From: Bacillota bacterium
GTDB lineage: Bacteria; Bacillota; Clostridia; Acetivibrionales; DSM-1351
DNA length: 12,724 nucleotides
NCBI GenBank assembly: GCA_023436515.1
Contig: JAEZIV010000016.1
Location: 1-12,724 of the forward strand
Reading direction: 5' to 3'
The translations under genes were made by a program, and so were the position numbers. Positions 3,170 to 4,903 of the stretch are shown in pieces; the stretch's first letter is position 1, and each line of letters opens with the position of its first letter. Below the pieces are notes generated by a model. That model did not search any database and had not been told where the DNA came from. It was given only the letters and a program-made list of their open reading frames with translations.

Positions 3170-3249
3170 GCATTGTTTTTTTATGTAAAAATTTGTTGAA
3201 TTGGTGCGTATTAAAGCTCCTTTATTGTGTCCTTAGTCATTATAACTAA

Positions 3250-3289
3250 AAGAGCCCGAAGGATGTGAAAACTTATCCTTCAGGCTCTT
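3250..3289 (-). terminator. Intrinsic terminator after the 53-codon ORF
   Basis: Two 7-bp arms (AAGAGCC and GAAGGAT with their complements) are separated by a single mismatch at 3257/3282 and closed by a 10-base loop. On the minus strand the stem is followed by TTTTAG, and the ORF stop codon is only 8 bases upstream. It separates the riboswitch module from the tetR promoter. Confidence 0.85.
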
Positions 3290-3296
3290 CTGGGAG

Positions 3297-3458
3297 TTAA
3301 TAATTTTCTCCTTTTGTGTCTGCAGCAACATCTTCAAAGCAGATCACTAGCTCCTTAAGCTTGTTGCCATAGTCGCTGTTAAGCTTAAGTATGTCCTCTT
3401 TTTTCCCGCTTCTCAGCGCTTCGTTTATCCGTTCAAGTAGAATATCCAATTTATCCAT
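3297..3458 (-). CDS. Small hypothetical protein, 53 aa, downstream of a c-di-GMP riboswitch
   Basis: I do not recognise this protein. Translation from the ATG at 3458 gives 53 residues, mostly helix-forming and charged (LLERINEALRSGKKEDI, then KLKELVICFED), with one cysteine and no signal peptide or membrane segment. The frame is open upstream to 3572, but only the ATG at 3458 has a ribosome site: an excellent GGGAGG about 7 bases before it. The longer frame would also run through an A+T-rich leader and almost reach the upstream terminator. A good ribosome site, a tidy terminator right after the stop, and a riboswitch leader upstream argue that it is real. Its length and helical character resemble small regulatory or adaptor proteins such as the Spo0E type, but the signature residues of that family are missing. 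Function unknown. Confidence 0.7.
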   Translation of the reverse strand: MDKLDILLERINEALRSGKKEDILKLNSDYGNKLKELVICFEDVAADTKGENY

Positions 3459-3570
3459 AGCTCTTCCTCCCTTTTTGCTCAACATATACTTAATAGTTAT
3501 TAATACTTTATTTTTGTTTTTGCTTATACTCCTTGCCAAGCAATAATAAGTTAAAGGCTGAGCTTTTTTC

Positions 3571-3617
3571 AAAAATAAAACAAGCAGGTATTCAAACAGT
3601 GCAAATCGCCTACTTGT
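3571..3617 (-). terminator. Intrinsic terminator of the riboswitch leader
   Basis: A 9-bp stem (3580-3588 with 3609-3617) closes a 20-base loop and is followed on the minus strand by TTTATTTTT. One pair is G-U only on the minus-strand RNA and would be an A-C mismatch on the plus strand, which fixes the direction. It lies between the c-di-GMP riboswitch and the 53-codon ORF, so it can act as the regulated terminator of the leader or as the end of a short RNA of about 260 nt. Confidence 0.75.
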
Positions 3618-3633
3618 AAATAAGTTAGTCCCA

Positions 3634-3729
3634 CCGGCTGTAGGCCGGCAGTGTTGGTTTAGGGCTGAAGTCCCATGAAACAGAATCTACAACACCCAAA
3701 CCGGATTAAAGCCTTAAGGCTTTGCTCCG
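3634..3729 (-). other. Structured leader RNA between riboswitch and terminator
   Basis: Several stems can be drawn on the minus-strand RNA. One is at 3702-3729: a perfect 16-base palindrome at 3708-3723 plus an outer 4-bp CGGA/TCCG stem. A second joins 3695-3702 with 3656-3663 (8 bp, with one G-U that only works on this strand). A third is a 5-bp CCGGC/GCCGG hairpin at 3634-3648 with the loop CTACA. A competing pairing joins GCCTAC (3640-3645) with GTAGGC (3608-3613), which is part of the terminator's 5' arm, so it could serve as an antiterminator. I do not recognise this as a named RNA family. It fits an unusually long expression platform, or a second RNA domain. Confidence 0.5.
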
Positions 3730-3743
3730 TTAGCTTATGTATG

Positions 3744-3819
3744 AGGCAACCCGACTATCCTATCGGAATTCCGACTTAGACTCGTAGCTTTGCGTCATCA
3801 CCTTTAGGTGATTTTGCCT
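3744..3819 (-). promoter_or_regulatory. Cyclic di-GMP-I (GEMM-I) riboswitch aptamer
   Basis: Read on the minus strand, the element has the family landmarks in order. AGGCAA (3814-3819) starts P1. A 6-bp P2 hairpin ATCACC/GGTGAT (3797-3812) has a UAAA loop. The nearly invariant GACGCAAAGC follows at 3787-3796. Next comes a P3 arm with TCTAAG and a TCGG-AATT-CCGA hairpin, and the conserved end GGGTTGCCT closes P1 with TTGCCT (3744-3749). Known members bind c-di-GMP at the three-way junction and usually act by termination or ribosome-site exposure. The loop is normally GNRA (GAAA), so UAAA is a deviation. Its own promoter lies just upstream, and the first gene downstream is the 53-codon ORF at 3458. 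Confidence 0.9.
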
Positions 3820-3840
3820 TTATCTTTATTACTTGAGTTT

Positions 3841-3868
3841 ATTTTAGCATAGTTTATATATTCAATAA
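3841..3868 (-). promoter_or_regulatory. Promoter of the riboswitch transcript
   Basis: On the minus strand an extended -10, TGC-TAAAAT (3841-3849), follows a -35-like TTATTG (3863-3868) by 16 bases (TTTATT with 17 also fits). The predicted start near 3834 places the 5' end about 15 bases before the riboswitch P1 stem, the normal arrangement. It lies just after the cheX stop codon, so the riboswitch RNA can be made independently of the chemotaxis operon upstream. Confidence 0.6.
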
Positions 3869-3890
3869 AAGGTTTTTATTAGATATTACT

Positions 3891-4364
3891 CTAATTATTT
3901 CTATCCAAATAGGATATATCAATATGTATTTGATTTCCATCCTCCAGTATCAGAGGTACGCAAACAACCACACTCCTATGCACACTCATCTGGATGTTGT
4001 CTCCAATAAAGATTGTAGGTGGTGTTATATCAATTTCAATTCCCTTTTGTGAGAAAATGGTTGCAGTGTTACCCAATATCATATTGCATAGTTCACCTAT
4101 TGCACTTTTAGCGATCTCGTCAAGCTCCTCCACCGGCATTCCCATCATCATGGAAGATGCTATCCTTAATGCTGTGAATCTATTAAAGGTGATAACAGCA
4201 CTGCCCATGATCTGGCCGGTTAAGCCTATCAAAACAACTAAATTTTCTTTTGTATAGGGCTCTTCCTTTACAAATATGTTGCCCAGTTTTGGTGAAAACC
4301 CGGTAGTTTGATGTACGATATTCATACTAGCCTCAATAAAAGGGTTAATGTATTCTGCCTTCAT
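3891..4364 (-). CDS. cheX: CheY-P phosphatase CheX
   Basis: CheX-type phosphatases remove phosphate from CheY-P. The 157-residue product has the family's catalytic signature on one helix: Glu91 and Asn94 in AIGELCNMILGN, followed by the usual Pro-Pro about 20 residues on (ITPPTIFIG). One such signature is seen, as in CheX; CheC carries two. The frame is open to an ATG at 4382, but I chose the ATG at 4364 because AGGAG lies 8 bases before it while the upstream ATG has no ribosome site. The gene closes the first block, 131 bases after the response regulator. Its natural substrate could be CheY (2034-2387), the neighbouring 135-aa regulator, or both. Confidence 0.9.
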   Translation of the reverse strand: MKAEYINPFIEASMNIVHQTTGFSPKLGNIFVKEEPYTKENLVVLIGLTGQIMGSAVITFNRFTALRIASSMMMGMPVEELDEIAKSAIGELCNMILGNTATIFSQKGIEIDITPPTIFIGDNIQMSVHRSVVVCVPLILEDGNQIHIDISYLDRNN

Positions 4365-4441
4365 ATTCTTATCTCCTGACATTACTTTATGGTTTAATTA
4401 TCAACACTTTTTACTTCTTAATTACTCACATTTCTGCATAC

Positions 4442-4495: not shown

Positions 4496-4903
4496 TCAGG
4501 CCATTTCATCCCCTATAAGTCCAAGTTTTTTCATTACTTCAACCAGCTTTTCTGTGTCCAGAGGCTTCGACGCAAAGCCTTCACAGCCCAGCTCGAAGGC
4601 CTTATTGACAAGATCAGTCCCATTTAAAGCAGTTGTCATAATAACCTTGGATCTGCTTTCGGCAGGTATTCCCTTTTGGGTCTCTATATCTCTAATAGTT
4701 TTCAGCACTTTCATACCATCAACCTTTGGCATCATTATATCAAGGCATACAAGGTCGTAAGGACTCTGGCCTTTTAATGAAAACAAAAATGCATCCAAAG
4801 CTTCTATTCCATCAACAACAACATCACATTCTCCATATCGGGATAAAAACTTCTGTAAGAATCTTCTGCTTACTAAATCATCCTCAACGATTAGAATCCG
4901 CAT
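4496..4903 (-). CDS. Single-domain response regulator
   Basis: A 135-residue protein made of one receiver domain and no output domain. Key residues are present: Glu7-Asp8-Asp9, phospho-acceptor Asp55 in CLDIMMPKVDG, Thr91-Ala92 and Lys113 in SKP. It starts one base after the stop of the hybrid kinase, with the ribosome site AAGGAG inside the kinase's last codons, so the two are translationally linked and the regulator is probably the kinase's partner, receiving phosphate from its HPt domain. It is longer than CheY and has an insert before the fourth strand (ETQKGIPAESRSK), so I do not call it CheY. The output could be the motor, competition for phosphate or CheX, or another protein. Confidence 0.92.
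   Translation of the reverse strand: MRILIVEDDLVSRRFLQKFLSRYGECDVVVDGIEALDAFLFSLKGQSPYDLVCLDIMMPKVDGMKVLKTIRDIETQKGIPAESRSKVIMTTALNGTDLVNKAFELGCEGFASKPLDTEKLVEVMKKLGLIGDEMA

Follow-up and report, generated by a model that had tools for sequence, protein, structure and literature searches.

A c-di-GMP-I riboswitch that probably turns off a 53-residue protein gene in a clostridial chemotaxis cluster

A stretch of clostridial DNA of 12,724 nucleotides, referred to below in its entirety as the window, carries a c-di-GMP-I riboswitch followed by an intrinsic terminator and an open reading frame (ORF) of 53 codons, in the midst of chemotaxis genes. Modeling of the leader RNA leads us to consider it probable that this riboswitch turns off, at the level of transcription, a short unit encoding a single helical protein of 53 residues. 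Switching off by termination was taken as the most likely mode of action because the computed direction matches the rule measured for class-I riboswitches of Clostridioides difficile, which are reported to be mostly OFF switches acting, where examined, by early termination (PMC6200980, PMC3649979). All of the features of the window described below are on the minus strand.

Aptamer, leader and predicted direction of the switch

The first-pass annotation had proposed a GEMM-I aptamer and a covariance search as the way to check it. The Rfam model of the c-di-GMP-I (GEMM-I) aptamer, RF01051, matched positions 3742 to 3828 over all of its 87 positions (1 to 87) with 83.5 bits (E = 1.1e-15), compared to a gathering score of 35, and the conserved GGCAAA of the model was found in the sequence. 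In riboswitches of this class, a guanine in contact with the ligand confers a preference for c-di-GMP over c-AMP-GMP. The conserved aptamer sequence points to c-di-GMP as the ligand.

The leader (3840 to 3545) was predicted to fold with a free energy of -94.9 kcal/mol (z = -4.5), and equal stability was reached in 0 of 200 shuffles, in agreement with the structured leader of the first-pass annotation. Downstream of the aptamer, folding revealed an insert of three hairpins (3631 to 3728; hairpins at 3728-3703, 3702-3656, and 3651-3631), followed by an intrinsic terminator (3571 to 3616; -11.0 kcal/mol). The latter consists of an 8-bp stem (3616-3609 / 3588-3581), a 20-nt loop, and the U-rich tract UUUUAUUUUU, so that the first of the two terminators annotated earlier is present in the sequence. 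It was missing from a simple terminator scan limited to loops of 3 to 8 nt, since its 20-nt loop exceeds the upper limit of 8. A mobile origin of the insert was considered, but no convincing relatives were detected among the compared loci or phages. Among the loci, a 28-base match corresponded to a palindromic part of the window's own insert and the remaining match, in locus L018, was 15 bases long; the six matches obtained with phages (E = 0.6) involved the terminator end only.

In the unconstrained, minimum-free-energy fold, the aptamer's 3' portion, together with the bases just beyond it (3760-3734), forms a 25-bp helix with positions 3624-3594, which overlap the 5' stem and the loop of the terminator. 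This predicted antiterminator encloses the three hairpins and captures the 5' strand of the terminator. According to this model, at low c-di-GMP concentrations the 3760-3734 strand would pair with 3624-3594, and the resulting capture of the terminator 5' strand would allow RNA polymerase to read on into the ORF. Upon binding of c-di-GMP, the aptamer would retain its own 3' strand, the terminator (3616-3581) would fold, and the 53-residue protein would not be produced. Expression of the protein would be expected in the motile state, in which c-di-GMP is low.

Enforcing the aptamer fold on the RNA extending from 3840 to 3565 raised the mean pairing probability of the terminator from 0.31 to 0.996. 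For seven 3' ends, the probability in the free RNA was 0.07 to 0.46 with a start at 3840 and 0.10 to 0.88 with a start at 3832; in all 14 RNAs (two starts, seven ends), enforcing the aptamer led to an increase, to 0.88 to 0.998. For the RNAs starting at 3832 and reaching into the ORF, the probability in the free form was already 0.75 to 0.88, which counts against a switch. Scrambled controls (150 of each kind) switched at least as strongly as the natural sequence in 12 cases if the loop was shuffled, in 37 if the stem was permuted, in 18 if both were altered, and in 17 if the insert was shuffled. We therefore regard the computation as suggestive only. In silico deletion of most of the insert preserved the predicted switch (0.05 to 0.99). 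An ON switch, by which c-di-GMP would raise expression of the ORF, has a precedent in Cdi-1-1, a C. difficile class-I target reported to be positively regulated by c-di-GMP (PMC6200980), but the direction computed for every one of the 14 RNAs makes this reading improbable for the window.

A similar computation was run automatically on 14 riboswitches, seven of which had no usable terminator and hence provided no controls; at six Clostridioides-like loci, discussed below, that encode 58-residue proteins, the terminator finder picked hairpins within or beyond the ORF, and it picked none at L167. Three riboswitches came out as OFF, namely, that of the window (0.45 to 0.92), a Clostridioides-like one preceding an ORF for a secreted-looking protein (L165; 0.03 to 0.90), and one belonging to a cheX operon in genome G057 (0.36 to 0.98). 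The static method detected no switching at the cheX riboswitches of genomes G409 and G437 (0.95 and 0.95) and hardly any change at two flgB-like riboswitches (0.97-0.98 to 0.98-1.00).

The 53-codon ORF and its transcription unit

The ORF (3297 to 3458) has an ATG at 3458 preceded, at a distance of 7 nt, by the Shine-Dalgarno sequence AGGGAGG (3466 to 3472), and the good ribosome site of the first-pass annotation is indeed there. Codon usage amounted to 0.159 bits per codon, compared to a mean of 0.143 for 66 pieces of 53 codons taken from neighboring genes, 35 of which scored at or below the ORF. Open stretches in wrong frames averaged -0.048 bits per codon (4 of 58 at or above the ORF), the in-frame codons ahead of the ATG scored -0.091, and 1 of 2,000 shuffles reached the score of the ORF. 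A single relative, P0002, which comprises 61 residues and is encoded by a contig of 509 bp, was 78% identical in an alignment covering 87% of the query. The nine differences within the first 45 aligned residues included none with a negative BLOSUM62 score. In simulations without selection, 10 of 2,000 sequences were as conservative as P0002, and 987 of 2,000 gained a stop codon or lost the start codon. Because codon usage fits that of the neighboring genes and P0002 differs conservatively, the ORF is very probably translated; both codon usage and purifying selection agree with a genuine gene, the latter as judged at the protein level from one relative.

The first-pass annotation had described the protein as conserved, and had named a lack of conservation as a reason to abandon its reading. 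Neither the protein nor the two-row alignment, used as the query of a word-based search covering 5.8 billion proteins, retrieved anything except the protein itself and P0002, so that the protein has a relative and comes close to having none. No credible match was detected in the genome samples, and no related genome carrying the ORF next to che genes came to light. Searches with the alignment returned nothing in 58 genomes at an E value of ≤0.001 and nothing in 7 genomes at ≤0.01. At ≤0.02, matches were obtained in 16 of 391 genomes, and all 17 places were dismissed as chance matches to pieces of unrelated proteins and spurious short frames, three of them within the same binding-protein-like family. 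The single match in 398 genomes (E = 4.8e-4) was located within a 274-residue frame and is about what chance would provide; these samples overlap, contain no known carrier of the gene, and thus bound its distribution little. A translated search of phages and plasmids returned nothing at an E value of ≤1, and no relative was present among 64 pattern matches in viral contigs.

The protein had no match in Pfam, NCBIfam, or PHROGs, and PDB comparisons yielded no convincing hit, the best E values being 0.14 by sequence and 4.2 by fold. Profile matches of P0002 all remained below threshold, with E values of 0.018 for Pfam DUF7121, 0.084 and 0.099 in PHROGs, and 0.11 in NCBIfam. AlphaFold2, run with the two-row alignment, predicted two helices (residues 3 to 17 and 20 to 50; pLDDT of 80.7 and pTM of 0.48), consistent with the helical character attributed to the protein earlier. 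Inspection of the sequence had suggested a Spo0E-like phosphatase, a Sda-like hairpin regulator, or an FlgM-like protein, none of which received profile support. Foldseek matches (E = 4.2 and above) are meaningless for a two-helix model, and FlaG, as a sequence match in the PDB (E = 0.26), is at chance level.

Downstream of the ORF, a strong hairpin (3248 to 3291; -26.1 kcal/mol, z = -5.9) is followed by only a short U tail, and we consider this second terminator of the first-pass annotation to be a probable one. Two Rfam microRNA matches in the interval 3239-3304 correspond to this hairpin and were discarded, their scores being far below the gathering scores.

Profile matches confirmed that the riboswitch and the ORF lie between cheX (3891 to 4382; PF13690, E = 3.2e-19) and tetR (PF00440), amid che genes. 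The riboswitch is preceded on the same strand by cheW, an MCP gene, cheR, cheB, cheD, and genes for a hybrid kinase, a 135-residue receiver protein (4496-4903), and CheX, and the ORF is followed on that strand by tetR, cheY (2034-2387), cheW, and cheA. The promoter placed ahead of the aptamer by the first-pass annotation could not be established: a consensus scan of positions 3200 to 3950 found four sites, compared to 2.2 ± 1.6 in shuffles, i.e., weak matches at a frequency near chance. One candidate (TTGATA-17-AATAAT; 3894 to 3922) matches the consensus at 10 of 12 positions, overlaps the 3' end of cheX, and is located just upstream of the aptamer.

The weakness of the promoter matches leaves room for a different organization, in which transcripts of the che operon would run past cheX and a promoterless riboswitch would gate their extension into the ORF, acting as a conditional terminator at the end of the operon. 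Scans limited to loops of 3 to 8 nt listed no terminator on the same strand between cheX and the aptamer, and none was seen by eye in the 62-nt gap between them, which speaks for this organization. Riboswitch units, on the other hand, usually begin at their own promoter, for which the 3922-3894 site is a candidate, and we hold the end-of-operon arrangement to be unlikely. A second site of similar quality (TTGAAA-18-TATTAT, 10 of 12; 3543 to 3572) is located downstream of the riboswitch terminator and could let the ORF bypass the riboswitch. Carried to its conclusion, this would make the riboswitch a relic or a producer of a short RNA, and five C. difficile class-I riboswitches are indeed reported to have no detectable downstream coding sequence (PMC6200980). 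The full-length aptamer, with its 83.5 bits, and the intact terminator argue for a maintained function, and promoter matches of such quality occur near chance in this region; we accordingly give little credence to an escape of the ORF from its riboswitch.

Class-I riboswitches ahead of small genes in other genomes

The C. difficile riboswitch of the flagellar operon, which had been cited as a parallel in the first-pass annotation, is a valid one, but class-I riboswitches that precede small hypothetical genes, rather than flgB, are nearer to the window. Cdi-1-3, ahead of flgB, has in common with the window a c-di-GMP-I aptamer, a long leader, and a link to motility; it controls the early flagellar operon (PMC3649979), in contrast to the lone microprotein gene of the window. 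In C. difficile 630, Cdi-1-8, Cdi-1-9, and Cdi-1-11 precede the 177-bp genes CD630_19903, CD630_23090, and CD630_33682 according to the coordinates of Table 1 of PMC6200980, so that, as in the window, a c-di-GMP-I riboswitch is found ahead of a gene whose hypothetical product is very small. Expression of these three genes in RNA-seq was 4.7- to 8.9-fold lower when c-di-GMP was raised, but only four of seven class-I genes tested by qRT-PCR fell significantly (PMC6200980). The OFF direction is thereby common to the three riboswitches, for which it was measured (PMC6200980), and to the window, for which it is predicted. A review lists five class-I targets of C. difficile as "small hypothetical protein" (PMC11477304). 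The combination of a c-di-GMP-I riboswitch and a lone microprotein gene is thus already known; the novelty of the window lies in this particular microprotein and in the location of its gene among che genes.

In four Clostridioides-like genomes, 15 of 30 c-di-GMP-I loci had an intact ORF of one 58-residue family just downstream (L143, L146, L148-L153, L155-L157, L160, L164, L166, and L169), and three had a shortened one; in this reading the aptamer was misplaced at 4 of the 30 loci (L144, L145, L158, and L159), and the ORF of L151 was listed from an internal start. A scripted treatment of 103 c-di-GMP-I loci parsed 82, of which 23 had a small first ORF. Eighteen of these ORFs belonged to the 58-residue family, and the other five (L022, L094, L100, L108, and L135) look unconvincing. 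Members of the family contain Cys, and in some loci the next ORF encodes 66 residues resembling, by eye, a cold shock protein. Genome G141 contains three c-di-GMP-I riboswitches of equal score (87.6 bits; L079, L088, and L097), two of which precede ORFs sharing an identical start (224 residues).

The shared architecture, a c-di-GMP-I aptamer and then a lone gene of 53 to 58 codons, raises the question of whether the 53-residue protein groups with these riboswitch-controlled small proteins of C. difficile and does the same job. Comparison with the collected small ORFs, including the 58-residue family, gave phmmer full-sequence E values of 1 or more, i.e., no sequence similarity, and the distance from the end of the aptamer to the ATG is 283 nt in the window and far shorter at the 58-residue loci. 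Such a grouping thus appears very improbable. The Clostridioides-like proteins are unrelated to the 53-residue protein and occur as several similar copies per genome, and the riboswitch of the window differs from those of the C. difficile small genes by its location inside a che cluster and by its longer, hairpin-filled leader. A long terminator-based expression platform is also described for the c-di-GMP-I riboswitch Bc1 of Bacillus thuringiensis, which, unlike the window, is reported to have two terminators 28 bp apart and to show no response to c-di-GMP in in vitro transcription (PMC11218506).

cheX loci and a possible role in chemotaxis

In a search for relatives of the window's cheX, we scanned 71 cheX loci, none of them longer than about 3.5 kb (67 places plus four more, in batches of 7, 20, 20, 17 of 19 sources, and 7 loci). 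A c-di-GMP-I riboswitch was present at 3 of the 71, representing two lineages, and was in each case upstream on the cheX strand. In genomes G409 (L026, 2086-2169) and G437 (L062, 2087-2170), the minus strand carries a riboswitch and a terminator directly ahead of cheX, which, to judge from this layout, looks to be controlled by c-di-GMP. The two genomes are close relatives, and their CheX proteins are 55 to 56% identical to that of the window. In G057 (L190, 2419-2503, minus strand), the riboswitch is followed by a terminator, an 87-residue ORF without a Pfam match, and then cheX. All three resemble the window in having a c-di-GMP-I riboswitch at a cheX locus, and they differ from it in that cheX is downstream, in the presumably controlled unit, whereas cheX of the window is upstream of the switch.

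About 0.3 riboswitches would be expected by chance in 71 cheX loci, a figure calculated by hand from the 56 riboswitches found in approximately 47.6 Mb of 14 genomes, which were a chosen set including G409 and G437 and most of which had only part of their candidates scored. Occurrence in two lineages exceeds this expectation, but the excess is small and was found after the fact. No riboswitch was detected within the scanned stretches around the cheX gene closest to that of the window by sequence (65%), in genome G234. There (L025, 432-1478, minus strand), cheX is followed by an HD-domain gene (PF13487) with an HD-GYP look, which may encode a c-di-GMP phosphodiesterase. Among a further 18 cheX loci, 16 of which were scanned (all except L017 and L018), one c-di-GMP-I riboswitch was found after cheX, in Mobilisporobacter (L006, 10760-10883). 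This candidate for a second succession of cheX and c-di-GMP-I riboswitch was not counted as a parallel, because the gene behind the riboswitch encodes a type IV pilus ATPase containing an MshEN domain, so that the riboswitch serves the pilus operon. Pilus ATPases with an MshEN domain are c-di-GMP targets of a classic kind.

A link between c-di-GMP and CheX is known from earlier work and involves proteins: CheX is reported joined to the c-di-GMP-binding MshEN domain (PMC5013675), and an action of c-di-GMP on the activity of CheX or CheY3 of Borrelia via the PlzA protein is discussed in PMC4013479, which names riboswitches in general terms only. A riboswitch at cheX was not described in the titles or opening abstract lines returned by an open-access full-text literature search.

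The position of the 53-residue protein among che genes makes a role in modulating chemotaxis, as advanced in the first-pass annotation, plausible, and the occurrence of c-di-GMP-I riboswitches ahead of cheX in other genomes slightly strengthens this proposal. A bolder one, which we offer as a speculation and consider rather unlikely in its entirety, is that c-di-GMP-I riboswitches have been repeatedly recruited to cheX loci of Clostridia, providing a direct RNA link from c-di-GMP to the CheY-P phosphatase step of chemotaxis, and that the c-di-GMP-repressed 53-residue microprotein has CheX, CheY, or the hybrid kinase as its binding partner, thereby setting signal decay only in motile cells. Whether c-di-GMP controls a CheY-P phosphatase gene can be tested with the cheX-riboswitch pairs of G409, G437, and G057. 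Should the protein prove to modulate chemotaxis, individual genes for excitation or adaptation would be tuned by c-di-GMP via RNA, and this tuning would stand beside the known protein receptors and the control of the flagellar operon. Even without a role in chemotaxis, the riboswitch would place an otherwise unrecognizable microprotein in the c-di-GMP regulon.
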